DNA of 36,064 nucleotides from Bacteroidales bacterium. Lineage in GTDB: Bacteria; Bacteroidota; Bacteroidia; Bacteroidales; VadinHA17. Position numbers and translations under genes: made by a program. The notes below the pieces were generated by a model. The model searched no databases. It was not told where the DNA came from and saw nothing but the letters and a program-made list of their open reading frames with translations. Positions 18,327 to 27,805 of the stretch are shown one piece after another; positions within the stretch are counted from its first letter, which is position 1, and every line of letters begins with the position of its first letter. The DNA is taken from contig JAFGXX010000129.1 in NCBI GenBank assembly GCA_016936435.1, forward strand, positions 1 to 36,064, written 5' to 3'.

Positions 18327-19142
18327 TCAGATAGCCATCATAGGGTTGACGTATCTGTTTATGCTGATCTCCTGGCTTGCTGCAATTGTTTTAACGGGTA
18401 CAGTAAAATAGATAGCCGAGCCTGTAATGCCGTTGCATTCAATCCACACAGTTCCTCCCAGGATAGAGATAAGCTGATTGGCCAGGGTTATATTGATCGC
18501 TGTAACTGTATCGTTGAACTGGGTAAGCGATTCATTCAGATCCTCAGTATGAAGAAATTCTTTGCATTTGGAATAACCCTGGCCGGAGTCAATAACATGG
18601 AACGTTAAGATATTGTCCCTGTAAGTGTAACCAATTTTTATGTATCCAGAATGAGTATTCCTCAGCGCATTCTGGAACAGTATCCTTATTACCCTGAAAA
18701 CCCTGTCGTTGTCGATATTGACGATTCCGGGATCACCGTAACTGCTTTCCGCCACTAGTACAACACCCTTATGAACCTCCCTTGACAGGATGTCTCTGAA
18801 TTCTGACATGAGGTCATTAAGTATGTTTTCTGGCTTGCATTCTTTTAGCCCCGAACTGGTTGCACCGGAATCAATAATTGCAGAATCGAGAAAATTGTCC
18901 ATCAGTTGAATCAACTGGTCACATGATGAAAGGATCTGTTTGCTGAAATCTTCCTTTTCCGTATCATCAAAATCATTATTCTTCAACAGATAAGAAAAGG
19001 CAACTATCGAATTCATGTGTGTTCTGACCTCATGCGACATACCCGATAAAAGCAAAGGACAATGAACTGCGCTGACAACTGACAGAGTGTCGGACACGCT
19101 GTTTTCTGTTTCAGAATCAATATCCCGGCTTGCCTTTTTCAT
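18327..19142 (-). CDS. Soluble sensor histidine kinase (HisKA + HATPase_c), no TM or obvious sensor domain
   Basis: H-box 'LLSGMSHEVRTHMNSIVAFSYLLK', degenerate N-box 'RILFQNALRNTHSG', G1 'VIDSGQGYSKCKEF', G2 'LGGTVWIECNGITGSAIYFTVPV'. Confidence 0.85.
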   Translation of the reverse strand: MKKASRDIDSETENSVSDTLSVVSAVHCPLLLSGMSHEVRTHMNSIVAFSYLLKNNDFDDTEKEDFSKQILSSCDQLIQLMDNFLDSAIIDSGATSSGLKECKPENILNDLMSEFRDILSREVHKGVVLVAESSYGDPGIVNIDNDRVFRVIRILFQNALRNTHSGYIKIGYTYRDNILTFHVIDSGQGYSKCKEFLHTEDLNESLTQFNDTVTAINITLANQLISILGGTVWIECNGITGSAIYFTVPVKTIAASQEISINRYVNPMMAI

Positions 19143-19176
19143 TTCGACGTAGAATAGGTTTCAGGTTGCAGGTTTG

Positions 19177-19923
19177 CTATTTAATGTGTTTGAGTATTTT
19201 CCGTGCCTGTTTTCTGTAAAGGCTCTCGGTTTTGCTTATAATACTTAGCTGTTCAACAGCTTTATCAGTCTCGTCTGTCTTCAGATAGCACATTGCCAGA
19301 TACCACTGCGCATCTTCGATATAGAGGTTGTCGTTGTTGTCGATTACCTTGTTGAATGAATTGCTGGCTACCGGAAAATTCTCCTCCTCAAAACTTGAAA
19401 CTCCGTACAGGTATGTCGATTCCATATCCCCGGGTGCTTTATCGATCACTTTCAGAAAATAGTCTGCTGCATTTCCGTAGTCGTGAATATTAAAATAATC
19501 GAGCGCCGTCAGATAATCACGGTCCGGAGAATCTGAAAAAGATCGTGCAGATGCAATTGTCTCATATGGCTTATGATATCTGTCGATCAGTTCATCTGCC
19601 GGCAACGTTCTGTTCCCGGCTAAAAAGATGCTCACTGCCACGATAACAGCACCAACTGCTGCAGCATATCTGATGGGCGAATGTTTGCGTCTGACAGTCC
19701 GGATGGGAGGTGCCGATCTCTGCATCTCAATGGCATGCAATTTATTACGCATGCGTAATACAGAAGTTTCATTGAGAACTCTGTCAGTTTTTGCTCTCAG
19801 CTCAACTTCATCACGCAACAATTTGTTCCCCTCAATTTCCCTGAGGAACCATTCTTTTTCGGTTTCATTCATTTCACCGGAATTATACCTTTCGATGAAA
19901 TATGAAAAGTCAATTGTCTTCAT
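19177..19923 (-). CDS. Anti-sigma-factor-like membrane protein with C-terminal TPR domain
   Basis: N-terminal cytoplasmic helical region (FIERYNSGEMNETEKEWFLREIEGNKLLRDEVELR), single TM (YAAAVGAVIVAVSIFLAG), then TPR repeats (ALDYFNIHDYGNAADYFLKVIDKAPGDMESTYLYG...). Confidence 0.65.
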   Translation of the reverse strand: MKTIDFSYFIERYNSGEMNETEKEWFLREIEGNKLLRDEVELRAKTDRVLNETSVLRMRNKLHAIEMQRSAPPIRTVRRKHSPIRYAAAVGAVIVAVSIFLAGNRTLPADELIDRYHKPYETIASARSFSDSPDRDYLTALDYFNIHDYGNAADYFLKVIDKAPGDMESTYLYGVSSFEEENFPVASNSFNKVIDNNDNLYIEDAQWYLAMCYLKTDETDKAVEQLSIISKTESLYRKQARKILKHIK

Positions 19924-20009
19924 ATAGTTCCATGTATTTAGTTTCTTAATTCATGATCATTATGACTTAAAGCATCCATATATTCTGTATTTATAGTTCT
20001 GCAACATTC

Positions 20010-20139
20010 CGGGTAGCAATGATTGTACCCGCGATGCAGTTATTCCATACCTGCCTTTAACCCGGCAGTTCCCGGATATTCACGTTGTGAATTATCCGCT
20101 CAGCGTAAATTAACGGTCCGCAACACTGTTGTCAGGACC
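20010..20139. other. Cluster of four consecutive inverted repeats (candidate structured RNA/attenuator region)
   Basis: CGGGTAgCAAtgaTTGTACCCG (20010-20031); CTGCCtttaacccGGCAG (20051-20068); CGGATATTCACgttGTGAATTATCCG (20073-20098, one bulged base); GGTCCgCAACactGTTGtcaGGACC (20115-20139). Confidence 0.5.
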
Positions 20140-20152
20140 CTGGTCAAAATGT

Positions 20153-20296
20153 TCAGATTTTTACCGGAGGTAAGGGTGGAATTAAAATAGGATCGCTTCC
20201 GTCGCCGTCACCGCCGCGTACTTTTCTCATCTGTTCAACTGTAAGAGCAAATTCAGCAAAAAACTGACCTGATTTTTTAAATTTCATTGTTTTCAT
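20153..20296 (-). CDS. Putative double-glycine leader precursor peptide (47 aa; absent from the supplied ORF track)
   Basis: Reverse-strand translation MKTMKFKKSGQFFAEFALTVEQMRKVRGGDGDGSDPILIPPLPPVKI*. 'LTVEQMRKVRGG' matches the general form of GG leaders (LSxEEMKKIxGG) of Bacteroidetes natural-product precursors. A C39-peptidase ABC exporter is encoded nearby. Confidence 0.75.
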   Translation of the reverse strand: MKTMKFKKSGQFFAEFALTVEQMRKVRGGDGDGSDPILIPPLPPVKI

Positions 20297-20534
20297 TTTC
20301 TTCTGTTTTTGATTTTATTGTTATTTTTTTTTGGCTGTTCGTATTAATTGTTTTACACTACTACATGTAAGACCCCCCCGATTTGTGACACGAAAAAATC
20401 AATTATTTTTCAACTATTTTATAACTAACTATATTTCATTTAATTACAAAGGTGTATTTTTTGAAATGAAAGGGGTCGATTTGATTATAACAGATATTTT
20501 TGAGATATTTCGGAGGGAATAACTCATTATCGGG

Positions 20535-23500
20535 ATGGGAAAAAAGCTTCTTGCATTATTATTTATCATCCTGTCAGCTTCAATGTCAGCCATGACATCA
20601 GCTATGGCTGATATTTCCATGAGTATCCATTCATCGGGAATCAGATGCTATGGCTGCTTCTCCGGTTGTCAGAACAATCCCGGAAGTAACACTTCAGATA
20701 TAAGGGAAAAGATCCGGCTGTTAAGTTCCGGGGGTGATTTACGAGGCCTGATTATGCTTTCCGACAGTCTTAAGAAATCCCTGATACTGCATAGCTCCGA
20801 CACCTCACTGCAGGCTGATATTTTGTATTATTCCGGGGTTTGTCAGTTATTGGCCTCGCGTCACAGGCAGGCATTGCCTGATCTCCAGGAAAGCATAAGA
20901 CTTAAAAAGATCATCGGGGTAACGGATGATGTTTACGGAAAGGCACTCTTTAATGCAGGAATAGCGTGCACTTATCTGGGAGAATATATCCAGGTAATAA
21001 ACTATATGACCGAGTATACAGGACTTGCCGGATTGCTTTTCAGAAATGACGGAGTAGAAATGATTGAAGCTCTTACTTCAATGGCTGTTGCTTCAACAGA
21101 GCTTCTCGATCACGAAAATTTCGCCGCTTATTCTCTCCGTGCGATCGGAATCACAAAATCAGCCGGCACCCTGCATTATCCTTCTGAAACTCTCAGGACC
21201 CTTTACACGGTAACAGGTGTTGGATATGCGCGAATGGGGGAGTATGCCAAGGCAAGGATATATCTTGAAAATGCAGAATCCGAGAATAAAGAAAACAACC
21301 TTCCTCCCGACGATAATTATATAAATCTGATAAACAGCCTTGCCATCACCTATGGCTATCTGGGGCTCTCGGAAAAGGCTACAGAATATCTTGCCCTCGG
21401 GATAGATCTCGCGGTAAATAATAATTCTGATCTGGCTTTTAATATGTTACATTCACATGCGGTGGAACTGGGCAGATCAGGTAAAACAGCAGAAGGAGAG
21501 GAGCTTCTTGCGTCGGTTGTTAAAAGGGCCGGAGAGGTTTACGGAACCGATTCCAGGTTTTATTTGCAGCAACTCAAGAATTATGCAGGTTACCTGGCAT
21601 TCTATTCACCCGATGCAGGCCGGGCACTCAGGGAATATGACCGGCTTCAGGAATATGTCAGTTTACACAGTGAAGACTTACAAATTATCAGCCAGATACT
21701 GACGGGACATTCGCGTGCACTTTACCGGACCGGCGACAATGAAAAGGCACTCAGAATGATAAGTAAATTGCTTTCAGGGAAAAGCACAGGTGACCCGGAA
21801 AGGTTTCTTTATGACAATCCCCCTATCGATTCCCTCAATCCGGGAAGCATTTCACTTAACATACTTCAATTGAAGCATGATATTTTATGGAATATGTACA
21901 AGGCCGGTAACACCTTCAGGTTTCTTGAATCAGCGGCAGAAACTGCCGGACTGATAATCGAACTGATAGACAAGATCCGGATTAACCTCAGTGAAGAAGA
22001 AAGCAGGATTATCCTTGGCGACAGGTACAGAAAAGCATACATTCTGGCCATACGTGATTACGAGCTTTGCTTTAGAGAAACAGGTAAGGACTACTACATG
22101 GGAAAAGCATTTGAGTATGCTGAGAAAAGCAAGGTGGCAGGACTTCTTTCTACCACACGTCAACTCAAAGCCATACAGTTCCACATACCTGAGAAGCTTG
22201 CTGAAAAAGAAAATTCCCTTCAGCGAATGATAGGCTTTTACGGATCGAGAATATCTGAAGAAAACGGGAAGGAAATACCTGATAAAACACTTATCGGGTC
22301 GTGGAATGAAAAAATGCTTTCTGCTGTTGCCGGCAGGGATTCGCTTATAAAGACATTTGAAAAAGAGTTCCCGGGCTACTATACACTTAAATACAGTACC
22401 AGGGTCCCTGCAATGAAGGATATTCCCTCAATAACCGGTCGTAACACCAACTATATAAACTACGTCATCTCCGATTCCATTCTGTATATCTTCCTTGCGA
22501 ACAGGAAGTACCATAAAATGATAACTGTCGCCACCGATTCTTCATTCATGAAGAAGCTTAATGATTTCAGGATTCTTCTTTCAGAACCTTCCCTGTCGAA
22601 ATCGGCAAGATCAAAATTTGACAGGTTTCAGAATACAGGCTACGAACTTTACATGATCCTGATCGCCCCTTTAGAAAAATATTTTATCTCCGGCAACCTG
22701 CTCATTTCCACTGATAATATTCTGTCCTATCTTCCTTTTGAAACTTTCCTCTCAGACAAATACCAGGGCAATGAATTACTTTACCGCAAGCTGGATTATT
22801 TAATGAATGACTATAATATCTCCTATGCTTATTCAGCTGCTTTTATGAATGAGAACCTTGGCAGAAGGGAATCCGGAGTAAAAAATATGGTTGCCTTTGC
22901 GCCATCCTACATGACCGGGATGAAGTATGACACGCTCATCAGAAGAATGGTTGAAACGAACTTTCTACCCGATCTTCCCTTTGCCAGAAATGAAGCCGAA
23001 TATGCTGCTCATGTTGCGAAAGGGGATGTTCACCTGCATGATGAAGCAACCGAGACCCTTTACAAGGATAAGGCCGGAGATTATTCGATAATTCACCTGG
23101 CCATGCATACTATTCTTGACGACCAGAATCCCATGAACTCGGCCATGCTTTTTTCAACACTTCGCGATACCGCCAATGACGGGATGCTTTATACCTACGA
23201 GGTTTACGGGATACCTCTCAGAGCACGTATGGTAGTTCTTAGTTCATGCAATACAGGAAGCGGTCTTCTCTCAACAGGCGAAGGAATTCTGAGCCTCTCA
23301 AGAGGATTCCTTTATTCAGGGTCTCAATCAGTGGTGTTGTCGCTCTGGAAAGTGGATGACAAATCAGGAACAGATATTGTCAAACTTTTTTACGATAATC
23401 TGGAAAAAGGTATGAAAAAAAACCTCGCCCTCAGAAAAGCAAGGAACAAATATCTTAAAAATGCCAATCAGCTTAAATCACATCCCTATTTCTGGTCGAC

Positions 23501-23630
23501 ACTGGTGATATTCGGAGATAACTCTCCTCTTTTCAGCAACATGAGAAGAATTACTCTCGTGTCAGGCATTCTTCTGGCAATATCCGGGTTCGTTTTGTTC
23601 TTCTACCTTCGGAAGTTAAAAAGATCATGA
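20535..23630 (+). CDS. Exported TPR-CHAT domain protein (caspase-like protease fold), C-terminally membrane anchored
   Basis: Signal peptide MGKKLLALLFIILSASMSAMTSAMA; TPR-rich middle; CHAT motifs 'SIIHLAMHTILDDQNPMNSAMLFS' (His) and 'RMVVLSSCNTGSGLLSTGEGILSLSRGFLYSGSQSVVLSLWKVDD' (Cys); C-terminal TM 'LVSGILLAISGFVLFFYLRKLKRS'. Confidence 0.88.
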   Translation: MGKKLLALLFIILSASMSAMTSAMADISMSIHSSGIRCYGCFSGCQNNPGSNTSDIREKIRLLSSGGDLRGLIMLSDSLKKSLILHSSDTSLQADILYYSGVCQLLASRHRQALPDLQESIRLKKIIGVTDDVYGKALFNAGIACTYLGEYIQVINYMTEYTGLAGLLFRNDGVEMIEALTSMAVASTELLDHENFAAYSLRAIGITKSAGTLHYPSETLRTLYTVTGVGYARMGEYAKARIYLENAESENKENNLPPDDNYINLINSLAITYGYLGLSEKATEYLALGIDLAVNNNSDLAFNMLHSHAVELGRSGKTAEGEELLASVVKRAGEVYGTDSRFYLQQLKNYAGYLAFYSPDAGRALREYDRLQEYVSLHSEDLQIISQILTGHSRALYRTGDNEKALRMISKLLSGKSTGDPERFLYDNPPIDSLNPGSISLNILQLKHDILWNMYKAGNTFRFLESAAETAGLIIELIDKIRINLSEEESRIILGDRYRKAYILAIRDYELCFRETGKDYYMGKAFEYAEKSKVAGLLSTTRQLKAIQFHIPEKLAEKENSLQRMIGFYGSRISEENGKEIPDKTLIGSWNEKMLSAVAGRDSLIKTFEKEFPGYYTLKYSTRVPAMKDIPSITGRNTNYINYVISDSILYIFLANRKYHKMITVATDSSFMKKLNDFRILLSEPSLSKSARSKFDRFQNTGYELYMILIAPLEKYFISGNLLISTDNILSYLPFETFLSDKYQGNELLYRKLDYLMNDYNISYAYSAAFMNENLGRRESGVKNMVAFAPSYMTGMKYDTLIRRMVETNFLPDLPFARNEAEYAAHVAKGDVHLHDEATETLYKDKAGDYSIIHLAMHTILDDQNPMNSAMLFSTLRDTANDGMLYTYEVYGIPLRARMVVLSSCNTGSGLLSTGEGILSLSRGFLYSGSQSVVLSLWKVDDKSGTDIVKLFYDNLEKGMKKNLALRKARNKYLKNANQLKSHPYFWSTLVIFGDNSPLFSNMRRITLVSGILLAISGFVLFFYLRKLKRS

Positions 23631-24220
23631 TATTCAGGATCTTCCTTCATCATTTCAAGTAATGCCTCTTTGGCAAGGTATTTTTTGCGTCTGGCATAGG
23701 TTTCATTCTTCAGCTTCAGTTTCACGGCTATTGTTTCATAGGAAAGACCCTCAGAAAACAGGGTAAGTACTTTCTTATGATCGTGACTCAGCTTTTCAAA
23801 GGCCCGGCTTACGATCCTCTCGAACACCATGTCGGCAGCTTCCTCTGATGGTGAGTCATCGGGCATTTCCGGGTGCAGTTCGAGGGTCTTCTTTTTCTTG
23901 CGCAGACTGTTGTTCCAGGTATTTCTGGCAATACTGTAAAAATACCCCTTAAGATCGGTTGTAAGTTCCAGTTTATCTTCACATATCTGCCTGTAAAGTA
24001 CTATTATCGAATCCTGGAACACATCGGATACATCATCGGCTGTCCCGCTGTTTTTGGTCACATAACTTTTTACCGGTTGGTAATAATTGTCATACAACCA
24101 GTTCAGGATTTTGTCATCCTGGTCCTTAATTCCCCTGATGATACTTTTATCTGAATATCTTTTAAACAACCCCGTGCAGATAGCAAAGCAAATGACAAAT
24201 ATAATATTTCCGGGAGGCAA
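23603..24220 (-). CDS. ECF-type sigma-70 family RNA polymerase sigma factor
   Basis: KRYSDKSIIRGIKDQDDKILNWLYDNYYQPVKSYV, DDVSDVFQDSIIVLYRQI, LKGYFYSIARNTWNNSLRKKKK, LSHDHKKVLTLFSEGLSYETIAVKLKLKNETYARRKKYLAKEAL. Start may be internal (TTG at 24169). Confidence 0.88.
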   Translation of the reverse strand: MPPGNIIFVICFAICTGLFKRYSDKSIIRGIKDQDDKILNWLYDNYYQPVKSYVTKNSGTADDVSDVFQDSIIVLYRQICEDKLELTTDLKGYFYSIARNTWNNSLRKKKKTLELHPEMPDDSPSEEAADMVFERIVSRAFEKLSHDHKKVLTLFSEGLSYETIAVKLKLKNETYARRKKYLAKEALLEMMKEDPEYHDLFNFRR

Positions 24221-24271
24221 AACTATGTAAGATTCCCCAACTATCGAATTTATTGGCGTAAGTTAAGGTTT

Positions 24272-26506
24272 ATGGCAAAAAATCATATCTTTATCGCTGA
24301 TAATTCTTCAGCCGGAAAAATGTCATTTCCTTTTGTAAAACAGCCTGATGCCATGGATTGCGGACCGGCATGCCTTAAAATGGTTGCTGGTTATTACAAA
24401 AAGAATTTCTCACTTGAATCCATCCGCAGAAAATGCTATATAACCCGCGAAGGCGTTTCATTTCTTGGCCTTTCTGAAGCTGCTGATGCACTCGGATTCC
24501 GGACTATCGGAGTAAAGATACCTTTCGAAATACTTAGCTCAGAAGTCCCTCTTCCATGTATAGTGCACTGGCGCCAGAAGCATTTTATTGTTGTTTACCG
24601 TATAAGCAGGGATAAAATCTGGGCAGCCGACCCGGCTCTGGGACTTGTCAAATACACGAAGGAGGAATTTATCAAAAACTGGGCAACAACCATCACCGAC
24701 GACAAACCCTCAGGGCTCGCAATGATTATTGAACCCACCCCGGCCCTGATGGAAACAGAAGGCGAGAAGGAAAAAAAAGGAGGATTCAGGTTTCTTTTTA
24801 AATACTTCCGGTTTTACGATAAATATCTTTTCCAGCTTATCCTGGGGCTCCTTATCGGAAGCATGATCCAGCTTATCATTCCATTTCTTACCCAGTCGGT
24901 GATCGACATAGGTATAAACAACAGCGATATAAATTTTATTTATCTCATTCTCTTTGCGCAACTGGCCCTGGTAGTGGGCAGAATGTCGGTCGAGTTCATA
25001 AGGGGATGGCTTCTCCTGCATATAGGTACAAGGGTGAATGTGGCAGTCATATCAGGGTTCCTCCAGAAACTTATGTCGCTGCCGGTAGCTTTCTTCGACA
25101 CAAAGCTTACAGGAGACATACTACAGCGTATCGATGACAACAACAGGATCGAAGAATTCCTGACATCAGCCAGTTTAAGCATACTGTTCTCATTGTTTAA
25201 CATGCTGATATTTGGTATTGTCCTCGCCATTTACAGTTTAAAAATACTCCTGCTTTTCATCGCCGGATCACTACTGTACATAACCTGGGTCTCGCTTTTC
25301 ATGAAACCCCGCGAGCGTCTCGACCACCAGAGATTCAAACAGATGTCAGCAGCCGGAAGCAAGCTGATAAACATGGTGAACGGTATGCAGGAAATAAAAC
25401 TCACCCAGAGTGAAAGAAGCATGCGTTGGGATTGGGAAGGATTGCAGGCTTCACTTTTCCGGCTTAAAACCAAAGGTCTTGGCATTATCCAGTATCAGTC
25501 AGCCGGGGCAACATTCATAAATGAAGTTACCAACCTGTGTATTACAATTGTTGCAGCTACGGCAGTGCTTAAGGGAGAGATGACTCTCGGCATGATGCTC
25601 GCCGTCCAGTTCATTATCGGACAGCTCAACATCCCGGTAAGCCAGATTATAGGTTTCTTCAGGGTATCACAGGATGCTTCAATGAGCCTGAACAGGCTTT
25701 CCGAGGTTCATGAGATGGACGACGAAGAGCCGGAGCCTGAGATGAAGGTAAGAAAACTGCCCGCCAAAAAGGAGATATTTGTTAATAATGTATCTTTTCA
25801 GTACGAAGGACCACGATCACCCTTCGTCCTTAAGGATATCGACCTTCACATAGGGGAAAATAAAATAACAGCTATTGTCGGGGCAAGCGGAAGCGGTAAA
25901 ACAACGCTTTTAAAACTGCTTCTGGGCTTCTATGAGCCAGTTGCGGGAGAAGTGCTGGTAGGAGATACCCGGCTCTCAAACCTGAGCCTTAAGATCTGGC
26001 GTGAAAATACGGGAGCGGTGATGCAGGACGGATACCTCTTTCCTGCCTCAATAGCTTACAATATTGCCCCCGGTATAGATGAATTCGACGAGGACAGAAT
26101 GATCCATGCTGTTGACACAGCTAATATAAGAGGGTTCATCGAGTCTCTGCCTCTGGGTTACAATACAAAAATAGGAGCCAACGGTCATGGTCTGAGCGAG
26201 GGTCAGAAACAGAGACTTCTGATTGCCAGGGTAGTTTATAAAAACCCCCGCTTTGTGATCTTCGATGAAGCTACCAACTCACTCGATGCCGCAACAGAAA
26301 AAGCAATTGTAGAAAACCTCGGAAGCTTCTTTAATAATAAAACGGTAGTTATCGTCGCTCATCGCCTCAGCACAGTGCGTGATGCCGACATTATAGCCGT
26401 AATGGACGGGGGCAGAATAGCGGAACTCGGATCACACCAGGATCTGATCGATAACCACGGACCCTATTACAACCTGATTAAAAACCAGCTGGAACTGGGA
26501 ACCTGA
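24272..26506 (+). CDS. Peptidase-containing (C39) bacteriocin-type ABC transporter
   Basis: C39 'KQPDAMDCGPACLKMVAGYYKK' with 'PCIVHWRQKHFIVVYRI...AADPALG'; TMD; Walker A GASGSGKTTLLKLLLG; signature LSEGQKQRLLIARVV; Walker B FVIFDEATNSLD. Confidence 0.96.
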   Translation: MAKNHIFIADNSSAGKMSFPFVKQPDAMDCGPACLKMVAGYYKKNFSLESIRRKCYITREGVSFLGLSEAADALGFRTIGVKIPFEILSSEVPLPCIVHWRQKHFIVVYRISRDKIWAADPALGLVKYTKEEFIKNWATTITDDKPSGLAMIIEPTPALMETEGEKEKKGGFRFLFKYFRFYDKYLFQLILGLLIGSMIQLIIPFLTQSVIDIGINNSDINFIYLILFAQLALVVGRMSVEFIRGWLLLHIGTRVNVAVISGFLQKLMSLPVAFFDTKLTGDILQRIDDNNRIEEFLTSASLSILFSLFNMLIFGIVLAIYSLKILLLFIAGSLLYITWVSLFMKPRERLDHQRFKQMSAAGSKLINMVNGMQEIKLTQSERSMRWDWEGLQASLFRLKTKGLGIIQYQSAGATFINEVTNLCITIVAATAVLKGEMTLGMMLAVQFIIGQLNIPVSQIIGFFRVSQDASMSLNRLSEVHEMDDEEPEPEMKVRKLPAKKEIFVNNVSFQYEGPRSPFVLKDIDLHIGENKITAIVGASGSGKTTLLKLLLGFYEPVAGEVLVGDTRLSNLSLKIWRENTGAVMQDGYLFPASIAYNIAPGIDEFDEDRMIHAVDTANIRGFIESLPLGYNTKIGANGHGLSEGQKQRLLIARVVYKNPRFVIFDEATNSLDAATEKAIVENLGSFFNNKTVVIVAHRLSTVRDADIIAVMDGGRIAELGSHQDLIDNHGPYYNLIKNQLELGT

Positions 26507-26515
26507 GACCGGACT

Positions 26516-27805
26516 ATGAAAGAAAAGAAAGTTGATATATTATATTCCGACCAGGTAAGCGAGATTATCTCCAATCCACCACGTAAAATTGTACGCCTGG
26601 GGACCTTTGTTATTTCATCCGTTTTTATACTTCTACTCATACTGTCGTGGCTCATTAAATACCCCGACATCATACCTGCTCCTGTTGAAATTACGACCAC
26701 CTTTCCTCCGGCAACACTTGTATCAAAAATAACAGGGCCCATTATTAAATTATACGTAAAAAACGGGCAAAAGGTTTCGAAAAACACTATTCTGGCCGTC
26801 ATGCAGACAGCAGCATCAATTGAAGAATTAGGAATTCTCGTTACAGTTACGGATACGCTGGATAATCCTGCGGACCTGGATCCCGAAGACCTTCCTGTTC
26901 TGACACAACTCGGTGAAATTCAGCCTTTTTACGCTTCATTTCTAAGGTCGGTTACCGACTATAACACGTATGTAAAAAATGATATATACGGTTACCGGAT
27001 CAAATCGGCATCTGAAGAAATATCGGCTTTGAATGATCACATAGGACGTTTAAGAACGAAGGAAAGATTTCTTGAGGAAAACCTCGGACTGGAACTGAAA
27101 AAATACAGAAGGGATTCTCTTCTTTTCAACAATAAGGTTATTTCAGAAAGCGCCTGGGAAGTTTCACGGCAGGCATGGAACAGCAGCAGGCTCTCTCTGC
27201 AGGAAGTGAAGCTGGAAGAGTCGTCACAGACTATCGTACTGACCCAAAAACGCCAGATCCTGCAGGATTATATTATTATGAGAGAAGAGGAACGTGAAAA
27301 ACTGGCTTCCCAACTATACGAAAGCTGGCAGAACCTTGTTGCTGAAACGAAAATATGGAAAAATAAATACCTTCTCGTTTCTCCATTCGATGGCGTTGTA
27401 ACTTTTACAAGGTACTGGAGCGAAAATCAGGCTGTACTGGCCGATGAGCCTGTTCTTACAGTGGTACCTGAAGATACCGGCGATTACATAGGGAGGATAA
27501 AACTAAGTATGCAGCGTTCGGGCAAAGTCACTGTCGGACGTGATGTAAATATTAAACTCAGTGGCTATCCATATCTCGAATACGGAATGGTAAGAGGCGT
27601 TATCATATCAAAATCGCTGGTCCCCTCAGGCGACTCCTACATGATCGAAGTCTCACTGCCTGATGGTCTGACCACATTGTACGGAAAAAAGCTGGATTTT
27701 ACCCAAAACATGCAGGGAATAGCAGAAGTAGTCACCGACGACCTCAGGTTGTTGCAGAAAATAGTAAATCCGCTGAGGCACCTTATCTCAAAAAACAGAA
27801 ATTAA
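26516..27805 (+). CDS. HlyD family secretion adaptor (membrane fusion protein)
   Basis: Single N-terminal TM, GPIIKLYVKNGQKVSKNTILAVMQ biotinyl-lipoyl-like motif, coiled-coil, LVSPFDGVVTFTRYWSENQAVLADEPVLTVVPE; 9 nt after the ABC gene. Confidence 0.9.
   Translation: MKEKKVDILYSDQVSEIISNPPRKIVRLGTFVISSVFILLLILSWLIKYPDIIPAPVEITTTFPPATLVSKITGPIIKLYVKNGQKVSKNTILAVMQTAASIEELGILVTVTDTLDNPADLDPEDLPVLTQLGEIQPFYASFLRSVTDYNTYVKNDIYGYRIKSASEEISALNDHIGRLRTKERFLEENLGLELKKYRRDSLLFNNKVISESAWEVSRQAWNSSRLSLQEVKLEESSQTIVLTQKRQILQDYIIMREEEREKLASQLYESWQNLVAETKIWKNKYLLVSPFDGVVTFTRYWSENQAVLADEPVLTVVPEDTGDYIGRIKLSMQRSGKVTVGRDVNIKLSGYPYLEYGMVRGVIISKSLVPSGDSYMIEVSLPDGLTTLYGKKLDFTQNMQGIAEVVTDDLRLLQKIVNPLRHLISKNRN

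Follow-up and report, generated by a model that had tools for sequence, protein, structure and literature searches.

A putative ECF-sigma circuit around a short exported peptide and a TPR-CHAT protease in Bacteroidales

The stretch of DNA considered here (the window; 36,064 nucleotides, contig JAFGXX010000129.1 of the Bacteroidales assembly GCA_016936435.1) belongs to a 3.2-Mb genome that is 98% complete, where it is carried by contig C192. An island of seven genes (18327-27805) encodes a soluble histidine kinase (HK), a membrane protein with tetratricopeptide repeats (TPR) and one transmembrane (TM) segment, referred to below as the TPR-TM protein, a double-glycine (GG) precursor peptide, a TPR-CHAT protease, an extracytoplasmic function (ECF) sigma factor, a C39-peptidase ABC exporter (C39-ABC) and its HlyD-type adaptor; these genes had been named in an original prediction made from the letters alone, and their coordinates were borne out. 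As judged from gene neighbourhoods, the island is one module, conserved across cultured and uncultured Bacteroidales. There is about an even chance that it forms an ECF-sigma circuit around an exported short peptide, in which the CHAT protease gates an anti-sigma factor. A bolder reading of its operation, with a probability of roughly 0.4, is a peptide-pheromone system of undescribed kind: a GG autoinducer would be sensed extracytoplasmically by the TPR-CHAT protease, freeing the ECF sigma factor from a TPR anti-sigma factor, and the sigma factor would amplify the peptide and, in some species, secreted proteases.

To assess the recurrence of the module, 73 CHAT genes were sampled at the level of the order: 60 loci came from an order-wide Pfam search in which resemblance to the window played no part (close to one genome from each family, and two loci from several genomes), and 10 loci had been collected previously; the Fisher tests on this sample are uncorrected for phylogeny. 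A divergent GG precursor was found within 0.5 kb of the CHAT gene in 11 of 25 loci with sigma and TPR-TM genes and in 3 of the 48 loci that do not have both (p=2e-4), and in those 11 loci it lay 85-474 bp upstream of CHAT. Two of the three remaining GG-positive loci are on short contigs (L236, 4.4 kb; L242, 4.7 kb), and the GG pattern is expected to match about 0.02 times per 2 kb per strand, as estimated on reversed DNA. A C39 peptidase was located within 9 kb in 6/14 GG-positive versus 0/59 GG-negative CHAT loci (p=2e-5). The suggestion that the island recurs as a functional module, for which such a neighbourhood analysis had been proposed, was thus upheld.

Among named genomes, the relatives of the window comprise metagenome assemblies of Bacteroidales or Bacteroidota along with the cultured Marinifilum, Labilibaculum and Prolixibacter. 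In L070, which belongs to another family, the exporter, precursor, CHAT, TPR-TM and sigma genes are all together, and in six loci (L158, L161, L162, L165, L171, L173) the exporter is upstream rather than downstream of the module, which indicates that the association survives rearrangement. Marinifilum flexuosum and Labilibaculum encode an exporter 55-56% identical to that of the window, on the same contig as the sigma gene and about 10-14 kb from it. Within the genus, most congeners have a TPR-CHAT orthologue of the window type, with OmpA/QueE and DUF349/pyrG at its two sides on every contig that extends far enough; the window locus itself lies between OmpA/QueE and DUF349/pyrG/yidC. Genus synteny alone was dropped as proof of coupling, since it extends to the housekeeping genes around the module, and other families and an empty site were used instead. 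In the congener G006 (97% complete), OmpA, a small FeoB-associated gene and DUF349 directly adjoin and all seven genes are missing; at this clean empty site (L086:7571-8773, G006:C44) the FeoB-associated and OmpA genes are separated by 90 bp.

The TPR-CHAT protease matched the CHAT family (PF12770) with 170.8 bits against a cut-off of 24, its CHAT domain spanning aa 700-995 (22632-23519) and followed by a C-terminal TM segment at aa ~1006-1024. The His-Cys dyad is intact (H858, 23106-23108; C905, 23247-23249) and invariant in 40/40 relatives, of which 39 have a signal-like N terminus and all 40 the C-terminal TM segment. A Foldseek search with the structure model (pLDDT 84) placed DdvA first by E-value (3e-12; 8rw5 and 8rot), with low TM-scores of 0.22/0.25, followed by separase and the Craspase proteases, among which 7zoq gave a TM-score of 0.41/0.50. 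The TPR array also matched kinesin light chain and the peptide-pheromone receptors NprR and Rap; the latter resemblance is compatible with peptide binding by the array, although not specific, as TPR arrays match one another generally. To our knowledge, no substrate has been assigned to exported TPR-CHAT proteases of the window type. A role in anti-phage defence was rejected, because the PADLOC matches were of the ATPase type only, besides one very weak match, and none was to CHAT. The CHAT reading frames are fragmented in L130, L131 and L056, and the sigma frames likewise in L131 and L056, which might reflect decay or assembly error.

The sigma factor has an ECF-type sigma domain (TIGR02937, 60.5 bits; cut-off 42.9). 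Its listed open reading frame starts at a TTG at 24220, upstream of its likely -10, and the length of many orthologues makes the TTG at 24169 (188 aa) the probable start. The TPR-TM protein is predicted to consist of a helical cytosolic N domain (aa 1 to ~80), a TM segment (aa ~84-103), kept in 43/43 relatives, and an extracytoplasmic TPR domain. In 23/26 order-level loci and 15/21 Marinifilum-type loci the sigma gene is paired with the TPR-TM gene on the same strand. Owing to this pairing and to its domain arrangement, the TPR-TM protein is a candidate anti-sigma factor, as had been proposed from the window alone. It is encoded between the precursor and the kinase in a three-gene precursor operon. 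The kinase has HisKA and HATPase_c domains above the Pfam cut-offs and no TM segment, and its gene is absent in the congener loci L039, L040 and L055.

The window precursor has a leader of 29 aa ending in GG (MKTMKFKKSGQFFAEFALTVEQMRKVRGG) and a core of 18 aa (DGDGSDPILIPPLPPVKI). With this leader and a C39-ABC exporter nearby, it has the features of a C39-processed peptide, processing being predicted; the C39 peptidase domain of the exporter (PF03412, 124.7 bits) is the only one in the genome. No match to the window precursor was found among NCBIfam or Pfam models and no paralogue in its genome. The window's clade yielded precursors at 37 loci, and between close species the precursor shows a pS of 0.42 versus a pN of 0.11; it is conserved in dozens of species and, by these values, a real gene under purifying selection. 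The cores of the clade have 14-20 aa, no cysteine, a net charge of -3 to +1 and many prolines, and mostly end in PP-I/V-x-I (PPVIIEI in a sister clade). In Marinifilum and Labilibaculum several near-identical precursors, each 30-33 aa long, stand in tandem, for example with the leader MKNFEVLNTEDLKNIKGG and the core MQDKSIDEDILV, and one Marinifilum precursor scores above the ComC (PF03047) and bacteriocin_sig cut-offs.

Alignment of the precursor-CHAT intergenic regions revealed a promoter-like element, TGTCACAAA-N13-ACATGTA, of 29 bp with invariant spacing, which is oriented towards the precursor and, in the window, lies 65 nt before its ATG. This is the single site with up to 2 mismatches in the whole 3.2-Mb genome. 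At up to 1 mismatch the element is present in 44/58 congeners (reversed control: 2 hits in all), and it is absent from G006 and G008, two congeners that are 97% complete and have no window-type CHAT orthologue. In the window's clade it lies upstream of 33/37 precursors but of none of the 44 CHAT, 48 sigma and 48 exporter genes. The housekeeping -10 of Bacteroidetes (TAnnTTTG) is found ahead of 44/48 sigma and 29/44 CHAT genes, and the exporter genes show a near-match to it, TATCTTTAC. Since this -10 precedes the sigma gene, the ECF element probably does not drive expression of the sigma factor in this clade. The original prediction had the sigma factor control both precursor and exporter; the distribution of the element favours the former and speaks against the latter, so that the sigma factor probably controls the peptide and the anti-sigma factor but not the exporter.

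In distant loci, a GGTnAC[CG]TTT sequence followed by an AT-rich block, a pattern originally spotted in Marinifilum-type loci, occupies the equivalent position at 13/25 precursors; the opposite strand gave none and shuffled sequences 0.03 on average. Four cultured Marinifilum and Labilibaculum genomes contain 4-11 sites of the full element (reversed control, 0), and these precede the precursor array, the sigma-TPR-TM operon, a C25 (gingipain-family) peptidase, an I9-S8 subtilase, lipoproteins and an EamA transporter. By its distribution and downstream genes, the element behaves as the putative target promoter of the module's sigma factor, and the distinct, conserved target promoter of an ECF pair is to this extent present at the sequence level. 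In Marinifilum and Labilibaculum the sigma factor is probably autoregulated and drives secreted proteases. A palindromic site of a dimeric repressor was also considered, as some copies resemble TGTCA...TGACA, but conservation does not extend to the inner half (GTCTTACATGTA in the window) and a -35/-10 pair fits better. The features of the window locus are collected in Table 1.

Table 1. Genes and promoter-like sequences of the window locus.
Feature	Position	Strand	Remarks
Soluble histidine kinase	18327..19142	-	HisKA and HATPase_c domains, neither TM nor receiver; third in the precursor operon
Candidate membrane anti-sigma factor (TPR-TM protein)	19177..19923	-	N domain, one TM, TPR ectodomain
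Double-glycine precursor, 47 aa	20153..20296	-	Leader of 29 aa at 20210-20296; core DGDGSDPILIPPLPPVKI at 20156-20209
Promoter-like element TGTCACAAA-N13-ACATGTA, ECF-type	20362..20390	-	Reads into precursor, candidate anti-sigma and kinase genes
TPR-CHAT protease, predicted to be exported and membrane-anchored	20535..23630	+	Signal-like aa 1-24, TPR array, CHAT, C-terminal TM
ECF sigma factor	23603..24169	-	Probable TTG start 24169, 188 aa
TAnnTTTG -10 (sigma-ABfr type) ahead of sigma	24196..24203	-	
C39-peptidase ABC exporter	24272..26506	+	No other C39 protein in the genome
HlyD-type adaptor of the exporter	26516..27805	+	

Some congeners have extra TGTCACAAA element copies ahead of a second HlyD/C39 exporter and of secreted proteins. 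Exact or 1-mismatch copies stand directly ahead of a second, distantly related HlyD and C39-ABC operon at L199:13381, L200:5746 and L095:3434. The copies at L204:1987, L208:5991 and L209:6000 share an identical or near-identical 13-bp spacer (AGTGCTGTTTCTG), those of L204 and L208 preceding a gene family that starts with MAST(T/S)ETGHAKNVANF; these three are possibly homologous or mobile sequence.

A working circuit may be proposed from these features. The sigma factor, the TPR-CHAT protease and the C39-ABC/HlyD exporter would be made from housekeeping-type promoters, and active sigma factor, which we infer to bind the element, would transcribe the GG precursor, the membrane TPR anti-sigma factor and the soluble kinase. 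The exporter would cut off the leader and release the 14-20-residue, cysteine-free and Pro-rich core with its conserved aliphatic C terminus. In the periplasm the anchored CHAT protease (or else the anti-sigma factor) would read this core, the putative signal, through its TPR array; the CHAT dyad, as the presumed transducer, would then cut the anti-sigma ectodomain, so that destruction of the anti-sigma factor begins and the sigma factor is freed. Such a loop would have positive feedback through the peptide and negative feedback through the anti-sigma factor, and in Marinifilum and Labilibaculum a wider output including the sigma factor itself and secreted proteases. The short, cysteine-free and non-cationic cores, together with the protease/sigma regulon, favour a signal.

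Several observations weigh against this pheromone circuit. In the window's clade the sigma gene is co-operonic with the TPR-TM gene in 0/43 loci, and no anti-sigma fold was recognised in the N domain of the TPR-TM protein, the fold search having matched TPR structures only. The module contains no membrane receptor kinase typical of peptide pheromones, the exporter is missing at the G023 locus, and no target beyond the precursor operon was found in the window genome. Finally, no GG precursor was found by the pattern used in 14/25 CHAT loci with sigma and TPR-TM genes, which means that the sigma/CHAT core can do without the peptide; this suggests that CHAT-gated sigma release may be the older core and the peptide loop a later addition. 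Loci of this kind without a detectable GG precursor are, for example, L065, L066, L252, L253, L264 and L276, and in L065 and L066 a secreted protein lies alongside that may take the place of the precursor.

The alternative that survives best, although we regard it as rather unlikely, is that the peptide is an effector: the CHAT protease and the anti-sigma factor would sense an envelope or nutritional cue, and the sigma factor would switch on a secreted antagonist, surface or scavenging factor together with secreted proteases. In favour of this role, the precursor follows the candidate sigma element in the window's clade and many distant loci, the cultured relatives carry that element ahead of secreted proteases and lipoproteins as well, and the tandem amplification of precursors raises the dose. 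Yet the cores have just 12-20 aa in most loci and those of the window's clade are without cysteine pairs or net positive charge, unlike bacteroidetocins; moreover, no immunity or modification gene was recognised in the module, and the core C terminus is conserved across species, as expected of a receptor ligand. It is more doubtful that the CHAT protease acts on the peptide, trimming or degrading it or being inhibited by it as by a substrate or propeptide-like inhibitor, while the anti-sigma factor answers through another protease. Precursor and CHAT genes are divergent neighbours in the GG-positive loci, nearer to each other than either is to the sigma gene, and both products are predicted to be extracytoplasmic, but the precursor-less loci imply that CHAT has another job, and the nearest solved TPR-CHAT folds serve sigma control or the regulated cleavage of one partner (PMC10028731). 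That the genes are merely co-inherited neighbours and the element belongs to another regulator is very improbable: the flanks are syntenic within the genus too and the regulator of the element was assigned by inference, but the genes are jointly absent from G006 with the flanks intact, co-occur in other families and other gene orders, and the element is missing where the module is missing and stands, in Marinifilum, also ahead of the sigma operon itself.

DdvA of Myxococcus xanthus (the DdvA/DdvS pair) is a transmembrane anti-sigma factor with a periplasmic TPR-CHAT domain in an ECF sigma pathway. A periplasmic TPR-CHAT domain in such a pathway is common to DdvA and, by prediction, to the window module, but in the latter the TPR-CHAT and anti-sigma parts are two proteins instead of one chain, the CHAT protein has an N-terminal signal and a C-terminal TM anchor and retains its catalytic His and Cys, and the module further includes a secreted peptide with its exporter. 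In the Craspase/CASP system of type III-E CRISPR (Csx29, Csx30, CASP-sigma), cleavage of an inhibitor by a TPR-CHAT protease frees an ECF sigma factor (PMC10028731). The window protease is structurally similar (7zoq) and the inhibitor cleavage proposed for it parallels that of Craspase, which is, however, cytosolic and RNA-activated, whereas the window CHAT is predicted to be exported; no Cas7-11/Csx30-like or CRISPR genes are present in the module, which sets it apart from type III-E Csx29 systems. CHAT, carboxypeptidase and subtilase genes have also been noted near ECF54 sigma factors, with proteolytic control suggested; an anti-sigma factor is said to be absent there, in contrast to the TPR-TM candidate of the window module (PMC8999054). 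Control of ECF sigma factors by CHAT proteases is, in view of Craspase, DdvA and the ECF54 remark, already a known idea.

On the side of the peptide, streptococcal ComC resembles the window system in its short core after a GG leader, its C39 exporter and expression by a circuit that the peptide may control. The window module differs in having no pair of membrane receptor kinase and response regulator, an ECF sigma factor and TPR-CHAT protease standing in their place, and in being Gram-negative; the membrane histidine kinase sensor of ComC-type systems has no counterpart in the window kinase, which lacks a TM segment and is absent from some loci. We know of no secreted-peptide signalling pathway established for Bacteroidota. 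In the literature on CHAT with sigma/anti-sigma factors, TPR-CHAT, Bacteroidetes GG pheromones and DdvA no description of the module was found, nor any published description of a GG peptide, exporter and promoter within a CHAT/ECF circuit. The module would link peptide signalling and an exported TPR-CHAT protease in one circuit with a defined element and a candidate signal and, if the proposal is true, caspase-like proteases gate sigma factors beyond CRISPR and Myxococcus. Cultured hosts exist (Marinifilum flexuosum DSM 21950 and Labilibaculum), which makes the circuit directly testable.

Bacteroidetocins are likewise Bacteroidales GG peptides with a C39-ABC exporter; they have 42-48 aa and cysteines, are cationic and come with a TM protein and, as a rule, a thiol oxidoreductase (PMC6671954). 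The cores of the window's clade, by contrast, have 14-20 aa and no cysteine, and the partner genes are absent; on comparison with these features (PMC6671954), a bacteriocin reading of the window peptide is disfavoured. A GG precursor with a Cys-rich core (SSCCVCLNGSGS...) was found beside a C39 fragment at L091:2403-2624 (G007:C64); it is bacteriocin-like and distinct from the peptide studied here.

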